From a virus, in IMG/VR virus record IMGVR_UViG_3300031565_000214, positions 1 to 32,173 of that record: a stretch of DNA of 32,173 nucleotides; one strand, 5' to 3'. The translations under genes were made by a program, and so were the position numbers. The notes beneath the pieces are model-generated. The model was given only the letters and a program-made list of their open reading frames with translations. It searched no databases and was not told the DNA's origin. Positions 5,194-23,001 of this stretch are shown here, piece by piece (the stretch's first letter is position 1; every line of letters begins with the position of its first letter).

Positions 5194-8007
5194 TTATAGG
5201 TTTAGATCGTCGCCGGTATTGCGTAGTCGAATTGGGATGAAGATAAACTCTACTGCCTTTGTAGGCTGTATAGCAATATCTACCCAAAGTTCGTTGCGAT
5301 CAATACGTGCTGGCGTGTTATTGCTCTCGTCTACAACAACCAGGAAGTCAGTTACGCCGCGTAGTGTAACAAGTTCTGCTAGGAACGAGTCAAACGCTTC
5401 TTTAACTGCATCTCGTGTTACTGTATCGTTAGGCTCAAACAAGAATGGCTGTGCCAACAGGTCTGATTGGTAACGAATGTAGTTAACAAGACGTGCAACA
5501 TTTACACGGTCTAGCGAACCTGCTACTGGGTTACGTGTCTTCTGTCCCCAAATAACAATGCCTCGTCCAGGAAGTGTTGCAATAGCGTTAACGTTGTTTG
5601 TGTATAGCGTGTCGCGCTGACCTGCGTTCAGCGCAACTGTTACAAACTCGTCCTCGCTATCCAAGTAACCAACTGCGGATGAATTGCTAATTGTGCCACG
5701 TGAGAAGCCTGCTGGTGCAAACCAAGGATAAGCAACCTGGTCGTTAAACGCCATTTGACGTAGTACCATGTGGCTTGCAGGAACAACTACTTCGCTGCCG
5801 TCTACGTTAGTAGATAGGCCTGATGGGTAGTAAACACCCAAGTAAGGACTTGTTGTTACTAGTCCGTCGTCGCCGTTGCCTGCTGCATTGTTAGCATTAG
5901 ATGACCATGCTTGCAAACTTGTCGTTGCATTAGATAGTCCGAATGGTGCGTCGCCAATTACAAACGCCTGTTCCTTACGATCAGTGTTTAGAGTTAGCAT
6001 TTCGTCCATTAGCTCAGTGAAGCCAGGTGCAGCAATTAGGTTGTAGAAGATTGTGTCATTGCGTACATCTTCATTTGCAGTGATTGTTGCTGCAATTGCG
6101 TTAATAACAACTTTCTTCTGTGCCGCTGCGCCAGTAATTAAGCTACCGTCTAGGTTGTTGCCGCTTGCGCTGACCCAACGATCAACGGAAACTAGTCCCG
6201 ATACATCTGTTGTAGCTGCGTCTTGCGTCCATACCTTAACGTTGCGTCCACTGTAGCGTGTATTCCATAGGAGTGTGCCTCCTGGATACAGTGCTGGATC
6301 TGGAGCATCGCTGTCTAGATCTGGATCACTGCCGCCGCCGTTGTTAACGCCGTTAGTTGCCGCTGATGAGTTAGTTGGTCGTGCATCGGCAAAGATAATA
6401 CCTAGTGGTGATGTTTGGTCAGTGTTGTCAACTAGTACCCATGCACCTGCTGTACGACGGTAAATTACCGGATACGATGTGCCTGAATCTGTTTCAACCC
6501 AAATGTCACCGTTCGATGGTGAAGTCGGAGCGTCTGCTTGCGTGGAAACTGTACCTGCAACTTCAATCCAACCTGTGCCAGCTGCATCTTTAACAAGTAG
6601 GTCTACGTTAAAGTTTGCGTCATACCAGTATGTACCGTATGCTGTATCGCCTGCAGGTGTTGTTAGTGATGCTGCGTATGTTACACCAGATACTGAGTCT
6701 AGGTCACTGAAGTTTGAATATGTGCCACCGGAACCGTAACCCATTTCTGCTAGTGGAGTATTAACGTTATTAGCAAGTGTTACGTCTGCTCCGTTAGTAG
6801 CAGTAATTACTAGTACTTCTGCGCCGCCCGTAAGTGTTGTGCTGCTTGCGACAATATTGCCGTTTGTAATAACGTCTGCATCAGTGTTAATTGTTGTTGC
6901 TAGTTCGTCCACTGTAGTTTCAGCACCCGTAAATGCAACCGTAACTGCCGCGCCTGCACCGAGCGTAATGTCGATCGAGTCTAGTGCTGCAATGTTAACA
7001 AATGTTGGTGTTGCTGTACCTGTTGCTGATGTTGTTGTTGCACCACTGTGGGACTGGAATACAACGTCTAGTACATCTTCGCCCGACACACTGTTGTCTG
7101 TCGAATCAACAAAACCTACTACTGTGCCTGCTGTTACTGCTGATGATGTAACACCCGACGATGCGTAATACGCCGTTGGATTCTGGAAGATTGGCGTTGT
7201 ACCTAAGTCAACAAACTGCGCTAGTGTTGCATCATAACGCTTAAGGTTGAGACTTAAACCACTGTTTGGTGTAGTTGTCTTCAACCAAAGGTCGCCAGCA
7301 GTACCGGTAGGTACTGTATAGTGCGGAGACTGGTATATCTCATTAGCTAGTGCGCCGCCGTCTAGTTTAGCCCAGGTGCCGCCCGATGTAAAGTTATAGT
7401 ATTCTAGGTGAACACCCGTCGTTGCATCTACGCTTGCTGGATAAAATACTGCAATTATGTCGCCTACTTGGCGTCCGCTTACATTGCTAGATGTATCAAA
7501 CGCTGTAGCACTAGGGTTAACTATTACGTCTACGTCTACTGCTGTCCAATTACTGGATGCATCCGATATAAACAAACCAGGCGTAAACTCGTTTAGATCA
7601 ACCCAATAAGTGCTGTCTACCGCATCGCCTGTTGGTGCAATTGATAGTGGATCTAGTTCTGCTAGATCAATGTCTGCGCGAATTACATACGCGCGGTTAG
7701 CAAGTCCTAGGTAGGAATATGCAGCAAGCAAACCGTATTCGTTTAGTGGGTAGCCGTTCTGTGCTGATCCACCGACTTCGTTAAAGTCCGGGTTACCAAA
7801 TGTCTGTAGTAGCTCACGCTGACTAGAGATTAGGTAAAGATTGTTTGCGTTGGCTGCTGTCGTACCTACTGCTGTCGCTGTACCGTCTGGTGTTGTCTTA
7901 TCCTGCTTAGTAGCAACAAAGACAAGCGGTACTGTACCTGGTCCTGCGCCAGTCGAGAAACTCTCGTCCGTCACGCTCACCTGCACGCCTGGGGATAATA
8001 GGGCCAT
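5194..8007 (-). CDS. gp18: Tail sheath protein, gp18-like, with large insertions
   Basis: Contractile sheath subunit. The ATG at 8007 (MALLSPGVQVSVTD) is chosen over an upstream in-frame extension because it has AAGGAG just before it and begins as sheath proteins do. The 937 residues exceed T4 gp18 (659). The N-terminal ~120 residues and the C-terminal ~250 (GIVIWGQKT, VNVARLVNYIRYQSDLLAQP, then DVAIQPTKAVEFIFIPI-like ending) are the conserved sheath core. Between them, about residues 130-600, repeated Trp-rich modules (near 133, 239, 458, 500 and 578) flank a segment at 335-415 resembling flagellin/hook IN motifs. These are probably surface-exposed domains. The gene ends at a strong terminator. 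Confidence 0.92.
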   Translation of the reverse strand: MALLSPGVQVSVTDESFSTGAGPGTVPLVFVATKQDKTTPDGTATAVGTTAANANNLYLISSQRELLQTFGNPDFNEVGGSAQNGYPLNEYGLLAAYSYLGLANRAYVIRADIDLAELDPLSIAPTGDAVDSTYWVDLNEFTPGLFISDASSNWTAVDVDVIVNPSATAFDTSSNVSGRQVGDIIAVFYPASVDATTGVHLEYYNFTSGGTWAKLDGGALANEIYQSPHYTVPTGTAGDLWLKTTTPNSGLSLNLKRYDATLAQFVDLGTTPIFQNPTAYYASSGVTSSAVTAGTVVGFVDSTDNSVSGEDVLDVVFQSHSGATTTSATGTATPTFVNIAALDSIDITLGAGAAVTVAFTGAETTVDELATTINTDADVITNGNIVASSTTLTGGAEVLVITATNGADVTLANNVNTPLAEMGYGSGGTYSNFSDLDSVSGVTYAASLTTPAGDTAYGTYWYDANFNVDLLVKDAAGTGWIEVAGTVSTQADAPTSPSNGDIWVETDSGTSYPVIYRRTAGAWVLVDNTDQTSPLGIIFADARPTNSSAATNGVNNGGGSDPDLDSDAPDPALYPGGTLLWNTRYSGRNVKVWTQDAATTDVSGLVSVDRWVSASGNNLDGSLITGAAAQKKVVINAIAATITANEDVRNDTIFYNLIAAPGFTELMDEMLTLNTDRKEQAFVIGDAPFGLSNATTSLQAWSSNANNAAGNGDDGLVTTSPYLGVYYPSGLSTNVDGSEVVVPASHMVLRQMAFNDQVAYPWFAPAGFSRGTISNSSAVGYLDSEDEFVTVALNAGQRDTLYTNNVNAIATLPGRGIVIWGQKTRNPVAGSLDRVNVARLVNYIRYQSDLLAQPFLFEPNDTVTRDAVKEAFDSFLAELVTLRGVTDFLVVVDESNNTPARIDRNELWVDIAIQPTKAVEFIFIPIRLRNTGDDLNL

Positions 8008-17364: not shown

Positions 17365-17393
17365 ATTATAGAGCCATATATTTCACATGTCAA
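17365..17393 (-). promoter_or_regulatory. Sigma70 promoter (TTGACA-17-TATAAT) for the SprT-like gene
   Basis: Minus strand: TTGACA at 17393-17388, 17 bases, TATAAT at 17370-17365. Both boxes match consensus exactly. Confidence 0.9.
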
Positions 17394-17417: not shown

Positions 17418-17515
17418 GACTTACAGGTATTTTTCAGGAAAAATCGGGCAGGGCTTGGTCAGTGTACTCCCGCGTCTATATACGGTCGATTTCCACAAAA
17501 TCAATGACTTACAGG
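17418..17515. repeat. Direct repeat GACTTACAGG, two copies 88 bases apart
   Basis: GACTTACAGG occurs at 17418-17427 and 17506-17515. On the minus strand the similarity continues past the 10-mer as [C/A]TTG[T/A]TTTT. Both copies lie upstream of the SprT promoter and could be binding sites of a regulator. Confidence 0.5.
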
Positions 17516-17572
17516 CGCCGCAAACCCTTATATATCAAGCACTTGCGCGTCCAGGAAAAAGCTCGTGGTCAT

Positions 17573-18493
17573 CTAGGCGCGCCAGTAGCCCTCAAGTCCC
17601 ATGCCGTGCGCGTTGATCGGGATGCCTTTCAGCTTCGGATAATTCTCGGACTCACGCATGAAGCCTTCGATCACAAAATACTCGTCGCTGATCGTGCCGT
17701 CCGTAAAGTAGTTGACGCTGTCAATATCAGTTTTGACCGTCTGCCAGAAGCATACCTCTTTTCCAGCGATGGCGTACACAGGAGCAGCATAGAACTCGCC
17801 AACTTGCTTGTGCGCTTGCTCCACTTGTTTTAGCAGCCCATCAAATGCTAGTGCATCTTCGATCAAATAGTCCTCGCGGCTGTCAGTGCAGATTCTGCGC
17901 ACCTGGACATATTGTACAGATGGGAATTTCCCTAACCACTCAAGCATCTCAGGGATTTCTTTGATGTTGTATTTGCTTGCAACAATCGACACGCGACAGT
18001 GATCGACTTCGGTCAAAATTTTCTCCCAATCTGGCATCGGTGATTTGCCCATCATCAATTGCTGCGTATCGAAATCTCGCGTATGAATCGAGAAGCCGGG
18101 GTTAGCAATACACTTGTCAATCGCTTCCATCTTCTTATGTGCAAGGAAGCCGTTTGTGCGCAGGCCCATTCTAAATCCTTTGCCTTGCACGTAGTCGAGT
18201 ATCTCAGGCAAGTAGCGATACATTAGTGCATCTGTGTTCTGCCCTGTGATATAGACATTCGGAATATTGCGTTCCTTACAAACATCGAGAAACTCGTCAA
18301 AGTTTTTCCAAGTGCTAAAGTGATCTCGCATTTGATTTTGATTTGAGAAAACGGGATCAATGTCTTTGCCGAGACAGAAATAACAATCTGCATTGCATTT
18401 GCCAAGGACGTTTATATTGGCGAAGCTTGGTGCAGAACGATTCCAATTCTTTTCAAACTCCGGTCGTAGAAGTTTATTTCGCCATTTACTCAT
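17573..18493 (-). CDS. Radical SAM enzyme
   Basis: The motif CNADCYFC (C33, C37, C40) is the CxxxCxxC signature that holds the 4Fe-4S cluster and S-adenosylmethionine in radical SAM enzymes. ITGQNTDAL stands where the usual GGEP-type SAM-contact motif is expected. The protein is 306 residues: a TIM-barrel part followed by a C-terminal region with single Cys residues but no second full cluster motif. The substrate is unknown; a modification of nucleotide, peptide or DNA base is possible. The ATG at 18493 (MSKWRNKLL) overlaps the upstream stop as TAATG; an alternative TTG seven codons upstream is less likely. It is the last gene of the NAD-salvage operon. Confidence 0.85.
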   Translation of the reverse strand: MSKWRNKLLRPEFEKNWNRSAPSFANINVLGKCNADCYFCLGKDIDPVFSNQNQMRDHFSTWKNFDEFLDVCKERNIPNVYITGQNTDALMYRYLPEILDYVQGKGFRMGLRTNGFLAHKKMEAIDKCIANPGFSIHTRDFDTQQLMMGKSPMPDWEKILTEVDHCRVSIVASKYNIKEIPEMLEWLGKFPSVQYVQVRRICTDSREDYLIEDALAFDGLLKQVEQAHKQVGEFYAAPVYAIAGKEVCFWQTVKTDIDSVNYFTDGTISDEYFVIEGFMRESENYPKLKGIPINAHGMGLEGYWRA

Positions 18494-18723
18494 TAGTACA
18501 CCTTTTCCTTCCAAATCGTATACATCACATGCCGAAGGTCGCCGCTCGAATAATGATTGCTACTTTTCTTCCAAGTGATCTTCTCGCCGAAGTCCTTTTC
18601 GGCGAGTTGTTTTGCTGTCTTAAGATCGCTTGCAAGCATCTCCCAATTAGTCTCGGTACCTGCTCCCATGTGTCCGAGGAACCTAAGGTCTTCGCTTACT
18701 ACTCTGTAAACGTAGTTCTTCAT
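18493..18723 (-). CDS. Hypothetical protein (76 aa)
   Basis: Not recognised. A short mixed alpha/beta protein (NYVYRVVSEDLRFLGHMGAG, then helix DLKTAKQLAEKDFGEKITW, then a C-terminal strand). Both ends are coupled: its ATG overlaps the NadV stop and its stop overlaps the radical SAM start (TAATG). Conservation of this position between NadV and the radical SAM gene in related phages would suggest a shared pathway. Confidence 0.65.
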   Translation of the reverse strand: MKNYVYRVVSEDLRFLGHMGAGTETNWEMLASDLKTAKQLAEKDFGEKITWKKSSNHYSSGDLRHVMYTIWKEKVY

Positions 18724-20249
18724 TAGTACACCTCTACCTCGAGATCATCTAGCGTTCCTACGTTAGCTTCTGCTCTGCGAATACGTTCTGCTGGAAGTTT
18801 TGCGTTCTCGCGAACCTCTGCCAGCGTCATGTCGCGTACCAGCTTGCCGCTGTCGTATACTGTCTCCAGCATTGGTGTGAAGCCCTCTGTTTCGTACCGT
18901 GCAACTTCTTCGATGCGAACTGTCAGGAATTCGTTGTTTCTGCGCATGAGCTCCAAACGTCCTGCCATCGACTTCTTGAAGCTTGAGCGTACTGGCTTCC
19001 AGGTTGTTGCGTCGTATATGGTAGGATCCTTGTAAATGTCATGCCAGCCATCTGCATCATGCCTTGCACATGCCTTCATTGCAAATTTCAGTGTGTCTCT
19101 GTTGTTCTTCTGCAGAAGACCACCACCCATTCCAAATGCAATGTTGCTGATGCTGAAGTTCTCTTCTTCCAGCTTCGCTACAATCTTGCGAACGTCGTCG
19201 ATGTCGATGCCGTCGCCCTGTATTACGCGGACGTTAGCAAGCACCTTGCAACCTTTTCCGTTATACGTGAATCCGAAGATTCGCGACAGTCTGCGAACAA
19301 GCTCAACCGGTGTCTCGACTGGGTCGCCACTGTCTGGACGGATAACCCAGGTAGCGCCCGACTTGAGTAGACGATCCTTGAACTTCGGTGCAATGTTCTC
19401 AACAAAGTTCATGATGTCGTAGCTGTCTGCTACCGTTGCGAAAATCGCGCCAGGCTTAGCCACCTTGTCAAATACTTGATCGAGGAACTTTTCTTCGCCG
19501 TCGGGACCAAATGCCGTTGTCGTGCTATGCTCCGTTGCAAAGATGCTGTAGCCTGCCATCTTCTCGTGATAGCCGATGTTAGCTGCCATAATGCCTACAG
19601 TCGTGTCGCTACCGAGGAAGTTAACAAGATGTGCTGCGCCGTTGAACGCCGCGCTCTCCATGCTGCTAACACCGCGGGAGCCGAAGTCGTGTAGCTTGAA
19701 GCCGATTTCTGCATCTGCGTCGTCTGCTGTCCTTACAAGAGCATCATAAATGATTTTCTTGATGTGATAGGACGTTGTTGCTACAGTAGTAGGTGCCCAA
19801 ACGCGCATTATCAACGTTTCCATATAGGTCGTCAATGCAATGATGCGTTCGTCTGCTACAGCGGATTCGACCGTTGCGAGCAACTGCTTCGTAGGAAGAA
19901 CTGTGCCTTCGGGGATTGCGCGAATCTTGAGCGGCATGTAGCCGTCGTAGTCGTCAACCACTGCGCGAAGTGCGATTTCGAGTTCCTCAATTTCGACACC
20001 AAAAAAGTGTTCTTTCTGAAACGCGATAATGTTGTCAACTTGCTTGTGCGTTAGCTGGCGAAGCAAATGCTCCTTGATAACCAACTGCAAGCCGAACCAC
20101 TGTAGCTCTTCGTAGTCTCCGCCGCGGCTAAAAATGTGGCTCATTAGCCTGTCAGTGCCTTTCGGATACTGTGCAGGGTGTGAGAATTTGTAGCTGTCTG
20201 TGTCGCCAGCTGCTCCGTATGTATTTCTAATTTCTTGTATAATGCTCAT
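18723..20249 (-). CDS. nadV: Nicotinamide phosphoribosyltransferase (NadV/NAMPT)
   Basis: Makes NMN from nicotinamide and PRPP, the first step of the two-step NAD salvage. The 508 residues match full-length NAMPT. Active-site stretches are intact: KLHDFGSRGVSSMESA (H187, D188, R192), the catalytic His in ATEHSTTTAFG (H241, matching human H247), and VIRPDSGDP (R304, D306, D309). The ATG at 20249 follows AAGGAG, which sits in the loop of an inverted repeat that may control translation. It lies in the same operon as the NMN adenylyltransferase that completes the pathway. Such pairs occur in vibriophage KVP40. Confidence 0.95.
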   Translation of the reverse strand: MSIIQEIRNTYGAAGDTDSYKFSHPAQYPKGTDRLMSHIFSRGGDYEELQWFGLQLVIKEHLLRQLTHKQVDNIIAFQKEHFFGVEIEELEIALRAVVDDYDGYMPLKIRAIPEGTVLPTKQLLATVESAVADERIIALTTYMETLIMRVWAPTTVATTSYHIKKIIYDALVRTADDADAEIGFKLHDFGSRGVSSMESAAFNGAAHLVNFLGSDTTVGIMAANIGYHEKMAGYSIFATEHSTTTAFGPDGEEKFLDQVFDKVAKPGAIFATVADSYDIMNFVENIAPKFKDRLLKSGATWVIRPDSGDPVETPVELVRRLSRIFGFTYNGKGCKVLANVRVIQGDGIDIDDVRKIVAKLEEENFSISNIAFGMGGGLLQKNNRDTLKFAMKACARHDADGWHDIYKDPTIYDATTWKPVRSSFKKSMAGRLELMRRNNEFLTVRIEEVARYETEGFTPMLETVYDSGKLVRDMTLAEVRENAKLPAERIRRAEANVGTLDDLEVEVY

Positions 20250-20267
20250 TGTAATACTCCTTACAAT
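20248..20267 (-). promoter_or_regulatory. Hairpin presenting the nadV ribosome-binding site in its loop
   Basis: The minus strand reads ATTGTAA-GGAGTA-TTACAAT: a perfect seven-pair inverted repeat with GGAG in the loop and the start codon overlapping the 3' arm. It could be a translational operator for nadV. Confidence 0.55.
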
Positions 20268-20291
20268 ATTGCCCGCTCCATTGCAGGACTT

Positions 20292-20510
20292 TTATCTCAT
20301 AAAACCGTCGCGGCCTTCATCGGCTACGGGTGCTGCACCTGTTGCTCGCCAGTCGCTGTTATCCATGTCTTTGTCGTACTTCGTAGATTCGACTGCGGCT
20401 CGCGCTGCTTCCAGTGCTACTTTGAATGGCATAGCAACTTTGATGCCATGCAGTTCGCGCATAACGCGCTCGTTATATTCAAGGTATGCAATAAATTCTT
20501 TGTTAGTCAT
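20292..20510 (-). CDS. Hypothetical protein (72 aa)
   Basis: Not recognised. Helical N-terminal half (NKEFIAYLEYNERVMRELHG, then VALEAARAAVES) and a short polar tail ending GRDGFMR. The ATG at 20510 overlaps the upstream stop (ATGA type), and nadV follows after 42 bases. It lies between the two NAD-salvage enzymes, so a connection with that pathway is possible but unsupported by motif. Confidence 0.62.
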   Translation of the reverse strand: MTNKEFIAYLEYNERVMRELHGIKVAMPFKVALEAARAAVESTKYDKDMDNSDWRATGAAPVADEGRDGFMR

Positions 20511-20764
20511 TTTATCTCTCCTTTCAGCTTCAACTGAAATAATGTTTTCTTTGCTTTTGTTTCGTCGTTAAACGTATGCTTGCGGTCAACTTCAAACATG
20601 TTGCTGTAGTTCATACCTTTTGTTCTTTCCGAGTCTTCTTCAACCATCGTATAAGAACTTACAAGTCCGCGAACATTAATGTGCGTGATTGAAATCTTTG
20701 CTGACACAACCATGCCGTTGCGAATAGCGAATTTTTGCATTCCGTAATGTCTGCGTGATTTCAT
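20507..20764 (-). CDS. Small basic beta-rich protein (85 aa)
   Basis: Not recognised. The ATG at 20764 (MKSRRHYGMQKFAIRNG) is chosen over an upstream TTG because GGAG lies a few bases before it and the upstream gene ends two bases away. The protein has alternating beta-type sequence (MVVSAKISITHINVRGLVSS) and a basic C-terminus. It is tightly coupled to the NadM-Nudix gene and to the 72-residue gene. No metal or nucleotide motif was seen. Confidence 0.62.
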   Translation of the reverse strand: MKSRRHYGMQKFAIRNGMVVSAKISITHINVRGLVSSYTMVEEDSERTKGMNYSNMFEVDRKHTFNDETKAKKTLFQLKLKGEIK

Positions 20765-20765
20765 C

Positions 20766-21836
20766 TTAGTTCTCCAGCTTCGCAACCATTGTTTGAATGA
20801 TTAGTTTATGGTCTTCGAAAAGTACGCTACCCATTGCATCAACTACGTCCAACGGAAACCAACGTGCTTCTTCTGCGTCGTCTGCGCCTTTCACCTTAGG
20901 CAGGCTGGGTTGGTCTTCGAGTGCGAACAGATATGCGTTTGTAATTGTGCGACCACGCAAGCTTCTGTTAGGTTCGTCAAAAACCTGAAAGTGTTTCATG
21001 CTGCCTCTAAGAACGCGAGACGGTACTTTCAGTTTTGTTTCTTCGCGTAGCTCGCGAATGACACCATCTTCCAAACGTTCTTGCTGATTTACAAATCCGC
21101 CCGGAAGTGCCCACAGCCCTTTGCCAGGTTGTGTGCGTCTTTTTACAAGCAGGATGTGCCCGCTCTGCACGACGACTGCATCTGTCGTTACGAATGTGAC
21201 TGCGTATGGTGCCTGCTCCCACATTTTGTGATAGCGACGAACGTATTCCTCTTCGTCAACAAGTATCTTGTATTCTTTCATCTTGTGAAACTTGTCGAGG
21301 AACGCAAGCACTTCTGCAGGCACGTCTGGCACAATCTGCTCAAACTCGCCGTCGAAGTAATGTTCGCGTATGATAGAGGCGTCAAGGATGCGTTCGCCGT
21401 TTGCGCGGACGCGATGACCGATTTCGATGAATTCCCAGGTAGGGAACTGGTTGAGGTAAAAGCTGGTGTGGTCCTTGTCGTGACCGAGGATAGCAATTTT
21501 GGCGTCGAAGATTTCGTAGCCTTGCTCGATTAGATGTTTGTGTGCTGCTGTCTGTACGTTCTTCAGCCACTCTGTGTTTGGGTAGTAATCTTCCACTCCA
21601 ATAACACCGACGCGATCTTCAGGAAAGATATCCTTGATCATGCGTTTGCGCTCATCTGCTGTGAACGGGTTTTTAGGAGTGCGGGGTTGGTTAGCTGAAC
21701 CGGCGATGACCAAAACGTGGTCTGCGATTTCTAATGCTGTTTTGATGTTGCGAACGTGCCCGTTGTGTAAGGGCTGCATTCTGCCGATGAACACGGCTAA
21801 GTCGTATTTTCTGTCTTTCATCTCGATATCATCCAT
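20766..21836 (-). CDS. Bifunctional NMN adenylyltransferase / Nudix hydrolase (NadM-Nudix)
   Basis: Two domains in one chain. Residues ~10-180 are a nucleotidylyltransferase: GRMQPLHNGH (HxGH at 24-27) joins NMN and ATP to NAD. Residues ~210-356 are a Nudix domain with the box G247-x5-E253-x7-RELREE (261-266), which in related proteins cleaves ADP-ribose or similar compounds. With NadV this restores NAD from nicotinamide. KVP40 and other T4-like phages carry the same fusion. The start is the ATG at 21836 or the one at 21821 (MKDRKYDLAVF). A sigma70-type promoter lies 80 bases upstream. First gene of the operon that ends with the radical SAM gene. Confidence 0.93.
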   Translation of the reverse strand: MDDIEMKDRKYDLAVFIGRMQPLHNGHVRNIKTALEIADHVLVIAGSANQPRTPKNPFTADERKRMIKDIFPEDRVGVIGVEDYYPNTEWLKNVQTAAHKHLIEQGYEIFDAKIAILGHDKDHTSFYLNQFPTWEFIEIGHRVRANGERILDASIIREHYFDGEFEQIVPDVPAEVLAFLDKFHKMKEYKILVDEEEYVRRYHKMWEQAPYAVTFVTTDAVVVQSGHILLVKRRTQPGKGLWALPGGFVNQQERLEDGVIRELREETKLKVPSRVLRGSMKHFQVFDEPNRSLRGRTITNAYLFALEDQPSLPKVKGADDAEEARWFPLDVVDAMGSVLFEDHKLIIQTMVAKLEN

Positions 21837-21896
21837 ATCGTCTGCGCTACAAGAATCCCTTGTAACTTAGGAAGGTCCACCCTTCCTTTATATGCT

Positions 21897-21906
21897 ATTA
21901 TTTAGC
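21897..21906 (-). promoter_or_regulatory. Late-promoter-like motif (GCTAAATAAT)
   Basis: Minus-strand GCTAAATAAT lies upstream of the NadM-Nudix gene and downstream of its sigma70 promoter. Two positions differ from the stronger copies, so it may be chance. Confidence 0.3.
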
Positions 21907-21916
21907 TAATATGTGT

Positions 21917-21945
21917 ATATTACGCTCTATTTCGGGTATTGTCAA
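21917..21945 (-). promoter_or_regulatory. Sigma70-type promoter (TTGACA-17-TAATAT) for the NAD operon
   Basis: Minus strand: TTGACA at 21945-21940, 17 bases, TAATAT at 21922-21917. The -35 box is perfect and the -10 box is imperfect (4 of 6). Confidence 0.68.
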
Positions 21946-21981: not shown

Positions 21982-23001
21982 TTACTTATTATGGACAGCA
22001 AAGCCATTGGCAAAATAAGTCTGATTACCGCTTACAGATAGATTATAAATAGGCATATCATTTTGATACCCGCCATTACCCCTTATGCTTTTTATTTCTA
22101 CAGGTTCCCCATTCTTAGTAAGCACAAAATCGCCAACCTCTAATTTATGTATATTATCTTTAGAAAATTCCGAGCCCGTGTGTTCACGCAGAGTTTTTGT
22201 TGGGGAGATAGACTTCCAGCCGTCCGGTGTCATAAACGGATGTTCAGAAGTCACATAAAATGGACTACCGTTAATGGAGTAAAGTTTTTTATTACCGATA
22301 GGTCGTATCGGGTTTGATCGAACAACATTTGTGGTGCTGTCTAACGCCAAAACAACATCACCAGCAACAATATCTTCAATTGCTTTTTCTGAACCATTTG
22401 CCATTGTAACCATCGTTCCGGCAATAAAGCAACCGCCACCGCCGCCACCACCGCCACCCTTATAAGTCAATGTCGCCGAACCAGCGTAGTAACCTGTTGC
22501 AATAGTTATGCCGGGGGCCAATCCTGTTCCGTCGTCTCGTGCAATTTCTATCATAAGGGTACCTGCCGACTGTGCGCTAAACTTACCTTCAGCTTGCCAT
22601 TGCCAATCCGGTGCAGGCGTTGTACCCGGCGCCAAACTGTGCCACGTATTTAGAGCTTGTCCTACATCAGGAGCATCGCCGCTGTCGAGGGTTGCACGTA
22701 TCCAATATATACCTGTATATTCTTTATCACTAAGCCACGTCGTATCTTGTTGGTAATACGAATAAGCTCCTGCACCAAAATCAGAATCAAATCTCGTAAT
22801 CGATCCCTGTTCTGTAAAATAGCCGCCGCCGCTAACTGCATCAGCTGCTCCGAATATCCAAGAGCACACCGCGTAACCGGCTATCACGCCATCAGTGTTG
22901 TCAATGCTATATATTGTGTTAGGTGATTCTGATGTACCCGATAGTGATGGGACCGATACGCCTGCTGCGGCTGTATGTGCGTCAAAGTGCATAAATGACA
23001 T
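21982..23001 (-). CDS. Protein ending in an intein-like Hint domain
   Basis: Residues 1-180 look like a beta-rich, Gly/Thr/Ser-rich secreted or structural domain. Nine consecutive Gly (182-190) lead to Cys191, where a Hint (Hedgehog/intein) domain starts: CFIAGTMVTMANGSEKAIED, block B T251-S-E-H254, and a C-terminal H337-N338 followed by a single Lys. All self-cleavage residues of inteins are present, but the +1 residue is Lys, not Cys/Ser/Thr, and there is essentially no C-extein, so this resembles a bacterial-intein-like domain that cleaves rather than splices. GGAGAG precedes the ATG. It directly follows the serine protease gene, three bases apart. Confidence 0.85.
   Translation of the reverse strand: MSFMHFDAHTAAAGVSVPSLSGTSESPNTIYSIDNTDGVIAGYAVCSWIFGAADAVSGGGYFTEQGSITRFDSDFGAGAYSYYQQDTTWLSDKEYTGIYWIRATLDSGDAPDVGQALNTWHSLAPGTTPAPDWQWQAEGKFSAQSAGTLMIEIARDDGTGLAPGITIATGYYAGSATLTYKGGGGGGGGGCFIAGTMVTMANGSEKAIEDIVAGDVVLALDSTTNVVRSNPIRPIGNKKLYSINGSPFYVTSEHPFMTPDGWKSISPTKTLREHTGSEFSKDNIHKLEVGDFVLTKNGEPVEIKSIRGNGGYQNDMPIYNLSVSGNQTYFANGFAVHNK

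Follow-up and report, generated by a model that had tools for sequence, protein, structure and literature searches.

The operon

The stretch of DNA analysed here, a virus record of 32,173 bases (IMGVR_UViG_3300031565_000214) which we call the window, carries phage genes including those for a tail sheath, a head-tail adaptor and rIIA/rIIB-like proteins. On its minus strand, from 21945 to about 17506, lies a unit of six genes in the order NadM-Nudix, two small genes, NadV, a third small gene and a radical S-adenosylmethionine (SAM) enzyme, below called rSAM. The subject of this work is the relation between rSAM and the genes for salvage of nicotinamide adenine dinucleotide (NAD) in front of it. 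A first-pass annotation of the window had placed these six genes in this order behind one sigma-70-type promoter and with overlapping or very short junctions, and all six are indeed present on the minus strand in that order. The junctions measure, in gene order, 1, -4, 42, -1 and -1 bases, which agrees with the claim except that one of them is short rather than overlapping; the next gene follows 238 bases past rSAM. The starts of the 76-residue small gene and of rSAM have in common a 13-base ribosome-binding context ending in TAATG, each overlapping the previous stop codon, and by its sequence rSAM is translationally coupled to nadV in the window. The promoter could be located (Table 1), but the nine promoter-like sites in the region are barely above the 5.9 (standard deviation 2.2) found in shuffled sequences. 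At the downstream end the unit is bounded by a weak terminator-like stem and the perfect promoter of the next gene.

Table 1. Features of the operon and its borders in the window, in the direction of transcription.
Feature	Position	Strand	Remarks
Sigma-70-like promoter, TTGACA-17-TAATAT	21917..21945	-	10/12 bases match
NadM-Nudix (nicotinamide mononucleotide (NMN) adenylyltransferase fused to a Nudix domain)	20766..21836	-	phrog_395 7e-77; 2qjo E 6.6e-83
Small gene after NadM-Nudix	20507..20764	-	ATG start, TTG 20785 possible; without family match
Small gene (72 residues) before NadV	20292..20510	-	tblastn relatives in L008/L009 and L014
NadV (nicotinamide phosphoribosyltransferase)	18723..20249	-	phrog_448 1.1e-129; 7yqo E 8e-118
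Small gene (76 residues) overlapping the NadV stop	18493..18723	-	tblastn relatives in L008/L009 and L014
rSAM enzyme with CNADCYFCLGKD, TGQNTD and RRICTDSR	17573..18493	-	ATG start (TTG 18514 possible); PF04055 1.1e-8
Weak terminator-like stem after the rSAM stop	17506..17526	-	9 pairs, 3 of them GC; not above background
Perfect sigma-70 promoter of the next gene (SprT-like), TTGACA-17-TATAAT	17365..17393	-	12/12 bases match

NARP2 denotes the route to NAD by way of NadV and an NMN adenylyltransferase (accessible text of PMC12028318 and PMC12043709), and judged by sequence the assignment of NadV and NadM-Nudix to this type of pair was right. NadV contains the Pfam domains PF04095 (4.8e-42) and NAMPT_N (1.4e-16), belongs with the phage nicotinamide phosphoribosyltransferases of phrog_448, and has as its closest solved structures 7yqo followed by NAMPT entries; a tblastn search with it matched 1,902 of 50,697 phage records. 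NadM-Nudix combines the domains CTP_transf_like (2e-14) and NUDIX (4.4e-20) and matches the bifunctional NMN adenylyltransferase/Nudix protein 2qjo across its full length. Its best NCBIfam equivalog score, 390 bits, is slightly below the cut-off of 397.

No Pfam family was found for the three small genes of the operon. The 72-residue gene has relatives with 35-38% identity (E ~1e-8) and the 76-residue gene relatives with 33-34% identity (E ~1e-10), in both cases by tblastn in the phage recovered as contigs L008 and L009 and in contig L014; a tblastn search of viral contigs with the 76-residue gene found no relative. In relatives NadM is followed by a small gene with weak similarity (15-37% identity, alignment A4) to the one that follows NadM-Nudix in the window. 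The small genes are real, two of them being conserved in L014 as well as in the L008/L009 phage.

The rSAM family

When viral contigs were scanned, relatives of rSAM came to light on 32 of them besides the window, and nine cellular loci were found, eight on genome contigs and one in a phylum screen. Scanning the viral collection again with a divergent sub-alignment added no contig, and the family therefore looks exhausted there. By tblastn the window rSAM had no match at E 1e-5, and weak matches only at E 10, in the 50,697 phage records, and an archaeal member of the family had none in the phages and 72,556 plasmid records. Three whole-genome screens, of 371, 398 and 379 genomes, detected the family in two, one and one of them respectively; all but one of the four positive genomes were those on which the screens had been centred.

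In the 29-row alignment the members have an identity of 41-89% with the window rSAM, and three motifs are near-invariant, CNxxCxFCLGKD, TGQ(N/T)(T/A)D and RR(I/V)xxDxR. CxxxCxxC is present in all 32 rows covering that site, out of 34 rows in total. The protein consists of a lone radical SAM domain (Radical_SAM, PF04055) of about 270-306 residues, and neither Pfam nor the family alignment revealed an RNA-binding domain. MoaA has three further C-terminal cysteines which bind a second [4Fe-4S] cluster. No cysteines for a MoaA-type second cluster are conserved in the rSAM family; the only conserved ones in alignment A3 are C33, C37, C40 and C72, and the bacterial member L051 has four in its aligned part. 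A second cluster is therefore unlikely.

The fold was modelled with AlphaFold2 from 29 sequences (pLDDT 88.4), a model that replaced a poor one made from six sequences (pLDDT 65.8). Foldseek matched it to MoaA, BlsE, SuiB and viperin, with 1tv7 and 7vob as the best entries, and VIA-align gave Z 18.6-19.0 for SuiB and MoaA and Z 17-18 for viperin. With CxxxCxxC and the radical SAM barrel, seen in the motif and the fold matches, the protein has the marks of the radical SAM superfamily. Eight members were scored against profiles of known families. The viperin profile NF038283 gave 26-48 bits against a cut-off of 180, and MoaA profiles at most 46.4 bits against cut-offs of 231-325; the PADLOC profiles for prokaryotic viperins (pVip) gave weak but consistent scores of 24-57 bits. 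In several members the MoaA and tungsten-maturase profiles equal or beat the viperin score, and structures of TYW1 also turn up as weak profile matches. Because the viperin and MoaA scores are far below the cut-offs and the pVip scores are weak, we regard rSAM, on sequence grounds, as a separate and uncharacterised phage/DPANN family which is tight, small and well delimited. Its predicted make-up of a single domain with a single cluster, together with the modelled fold, matches the radical SAM enzymes that act on nucleotides.

It should be mentioned that in one locus from a Clostridia bin a second, different radical SAM gene of MoaA-like type (L048:623-1543) is situated directly upstream of the family member.

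Association with NAD genes

The contigs L008 and L009 represent one phage recovered twice, with identical cassettes, and the order of genes there is NadM, small genes, NadV, a small gene, an inserted 86-residue gene and rSAM. Other members of the family are found beside NAD genes of other kinds. In L046 an NrtR-like gene is followed by a broken rSAM, PncB, NadD and NadE; in L060 a 38-residue remnant of rSAM lies between a PncA-like gene and NAPRT; in L053 a frameshifted rSAM is followed by CinA/PncC; and in L059 NadE, a PncA-like gene and PncB are found 2.3-5 kb upstream of rSAM, PncB being 2.3 kb away. A chromosome from Pacearchaeota (L052) carries NAPRT, a gene of 72 residues, rSAM and NrtR in succession. 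A second genome of the same phylum (L063) has rSAM followed by NrtR, flanked, as judged by eye, by housekeeping genes for a tRNA synthetase and ribosomal proteins; neither of two NAPRT probes found NAPRT in that genome. The NrtR proteins of L052 and L046 have in Pfam a Nudix domain (PF00293) and a winged helix (PF21906), and that of L063 is assigned from NCBIfam only, where NF050029 gives 194 bits, below the cut-off of 400. Palindromes near the archaeal rSAM genes differ from one genome to the other, and we do not build on them. On the rSAM tree the NAD label changes at least four times over 34 rows, L060 being left out and L046 and L053 partial.

The association was also analysed statistically. 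Viral loci were counted on 26 of the 32 contigs, leaving out L008, whose cassette is that of L009, L031, L032 and L034 (same phage as L033), L058 (a near copy of L057) and L002, which begins inside rSAM; L043 was kept although its flank repeats that of L025. In the position test, from which the near copies G004, G026, G020 and G1185 were dropped, PF04095 is within 2.5 kb of rSAM in three of the seven non-redundant viral contigs that have both, where 0.37 would be expected (P=0.003); within 5 kb the count is again three of seven, with 0.58 expected (P=0.012). Clusters of NAD genes number four in the 243 kb around the 26 loci, whereas control chunks taken from the same contigs, about 1,262 kb in total, contain three (P=0.016). 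A NadM fragment in control chunk L131 was excluded as a control because it adjoins the rSAM of that phage, and 14 kb was subtracted from the control length.

Interpretation

The reading we tentatively prefer, without giving it quite an even chance, is that the unit is an operon by which a phage refills NAD in the manner of NARP2, and that its accessory rSAM acts on an NAD-related nucleotide. From family identity NadV would convert nicotinamide to NMN and NadM would convert NMN to NAD, and the Nudix domain probably clears compounds of the ADP-ribose type. rSAM, with one [4Fe-4S] cluster and SAM, could then alter nicotinamide, NMN, NAD, an NAD-derived signal or an ADP-ribose-type compound, in a manner likened to that of viperin, MoaA and BlsE, which change nucleotides. 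It would in this way add a step of repair, detoxification or modification to the refilling of NAD during attack by the host. This reading is supported by the translational coupling to nadV in the window, because the gene order is kept in the L008/L009 phage in spite of the 86-residue insertion, because the NAD neighbours are non-orthologous, and by the changes of the NAD label on the tree, the position and cluster tests, the fold and the make-up of one domain with one cluster.

A more far-reaching proposal is that rSAM constitutes a new class of radical SAM enzymes whose chemistry modifies NAD, NMN or an immune signal derived from NAD. Viruses, along with a few bacteria and DPANN archaea, would use it either to obtain an NAD pool which host NADases cannot drain or to eliminate an NAD-based alarm signal. 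This we consider improbable.

Several observations weigh against an action on NAD-related nucleotides. The fold match with the highest Z (20.3) is 7tom, a lipid enzyme from archaea, and not an enzyme that acts on nucleotides. At 22 of the 26 viral loci no NAD gene was found within 5 kb, and 18 of the 26 have neither an NAD gene nor an RNA ligase. The seeds for the NAD genes were partly taken from rSAM loci, which biases the cluster test towards them. An NAPRT gene is present on 8 of 25 non-redundant rSAM contigs, not above the published rates for NadV in large phages, which a survey puts at 22% for phages of medium size and 33% for jumbo phages (PMC9503650); only the adjacency of NAPRT to rSAM is enriched, not their co-occurrence on a contig. 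Three of the NAD-linked copies of rSAM are broken (L046:5942-6805, L053:7896-8828 and L060:5998-6114). To these are added the RNA ligases beside rSAM and the other enzymes found behind nadV, both taken up below. As to the broken copies, they look as if rSAM is easily lost from NAD operons, and the one in L053 is possibly an assembly error.

The RNA ligases lead to a different explanation, in which rSAM is an enzyme acting on RNA or tRNA in a general island of repair and counter-defence, travelling with RNA ligases that mend cleaved tRNA and with NAD salvage, both undoing damage by host defence. RNA ligase (PF09414) is within 2.5 kb of rSAM in four of the nine viral contigs that have one, against 0.53 expected (P=0.0009). 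Ligases beside family members are found in several unrelated viruses and in one bacterium, at L025:4354-5972, L027:6831-7784, L056:7135-8271, L060:7898-9007 and L051:11548-12711, the last in a cellular locus from a bacterial genome, 2.7 kb from rSAM, and they come from at least two families, Rnl2 and DRB0094. L060 combines the ligase with its PncA-like gene, rSAM remnant and NAPRT; KptA connects RNA repair with NAD (PMC9503650); and the weak matches to TYW1 point in the same direction. The lone radical SAM domain with no RNA-binding domain found speaks against it, however, as does NrtR beside rSAM on archaeal chromosomes, which points to NAD metabolism, and no RNA ligase was matched near the rSAM of L009, the closest phage relative of the window rSAM. 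We judge this explanation to be unlikely, but serious enough to be kept beside the preferred one. Since RNA ligases are just as enriched, the link between rSAM and NAD is not exclusive.

Alternatively, rSAM could be chance cargo in a variable slot after nadV which takes up unrelated small enzymes, with no functional tie to NAD. Close relatives of the window NadV are on six contigs, and apart from the window only the one L008/L009 phage has rSAM next to nadV. In L014 the slot, after nadV and a small gene, holds an unrelated 220-residue protein of phrog_1843 (L014:7795-8457), in which we see by eye an HxD...H pattern, presumably that of iron/2-oxoglutarate oxygenases. In L016 (7503-8363), and in L017 as read solely from gene positions matching L016, an RlmN/Cfr-like radical SAM gene of another family overlaps the nadV stop; for its relatives in the phages D479, Arno18 and P778 the annotation shows no nadV within 6 kb. 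A search of the contigs L014, L016, L017 and L018 with the family alignment found no rSAM family member. In L003, a 317-kb phage with a sister member of the family, rSAM is 110 kb from NadM/NadV. With these differing slots and the distant pair in L003, the partnership of rSAM and nadV is not a fixed one. In relatives rSAM is mostly away from nadV, which, taken literally, refutes the first-pass annotation by the test it had itself named; the small genes, however, stay with nadV also where rSAM is absent, as in L014. Mere cargo would, however, hardly be expected to show repeated independent adjacency to different NAD enzymes, some of them chromosomal, or the result of the position test, and we give this explanation a rather low probability.

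That rSAM should be a phage viperin making modified cytidine triphosphate or another chain-terminating nucleotide is very improbable, the pVip matches and the viperin fold notwithstanding, given the low NF038283 scores and the MoaA and tungsten-maturase profiles that do as well or better in several members.

The earlier suggestion that rSAM may extend NAD salvage gains from the family being beside NAD operons built of other enzymes, in viruses and on archaeal chromosomes, and loses from the equal enrichment of RNA ligases. We find it plausible that rSAM extends NAD salvage, with the RNA-repair link as a rival. An accessory radical enzyme that recurs with several sets of NAD genes which are not orthologous would indicate that NAD chemistry lacks a reaction in its present description, and also a new way round NAD-depleting immunity. 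The recurrence observed suggests that a step is missing from what is described of the protection or alteration of NAD by viruses.

Neighbouring genes

Just upstream of the operon the window has a protein with a Hint (intein-like splicing) domain and a glycine-rich linker (21982-23001), and relatives have at the same place Hint proteins that differ from it. The rIIA- and rIIB-like genes of this sheath-tailed phage (28831-32072) lie near an endolysin and a head-maturation-protease-like gene. In L028 a gene resembling GMP reductase/IMP dehydrogenase (6821-7867) overlaps the rSAM stop, and NadM and NadV follow at a distance of about 10 kb. In Myxococcus phage Mx1 nadV is followed by an 876-bp gene which, judged by eye, does not encode an rSAM.

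Comparison with known systems

The refilling of NAD by phages is a recently described counter-defence. Our literature search found no report linking radical SAM enzymes with phage NAD salvage, and no paper joining NrtR with radical SAM or radical SAM auxiliary metabolic genes of phages with NAD. Among the papers listed by a looser search, radical SAM occurred only in one on animal sirtuins. Radical SAM is not mentioned in the accessible part of the survey of viral NAD systems (PMC9503650), and the term was not found in the accessible text of the NAD-reconstitution papers PMC12774641 and PMC13232231.

Among radical SAM enzymes rSAM resembles MoaA and BlsE in that its model has 1tv7 and 7vob as best Foldseek matches, and it differs from them in scoring below their cut-offs. 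With viperin and pVip it has in common a similar fold, CxxxCxxC, what is probably a single cluster, and weak profile matches, whereas it is far below the family cut-off and has its own TGQ(N/T)(T/A)D, at the place where many radical SAM enzymes carry a GGE motif, and a conserved RR(I/V)xxDxR. Compared with NARP2, the window has the NAMPT-family NadV and the NadM-Nudix within one coupled operon, to which small genes and rSAM have been added. A parallel in organization is RyDEP, an extra glycosidase encoded within a NARP1 operon of phages; it cleaves signals of the cyclic ADP-ribose type and thereby supplies NARP1 (preprint PMC13232231). In the window, too, a gene for an extra enzyme is lodged in an NAD-reconstitution operon, but here the enzyme is a radical SAM protein and not a glycosidase acting on cyclic ADP-ribose signals.

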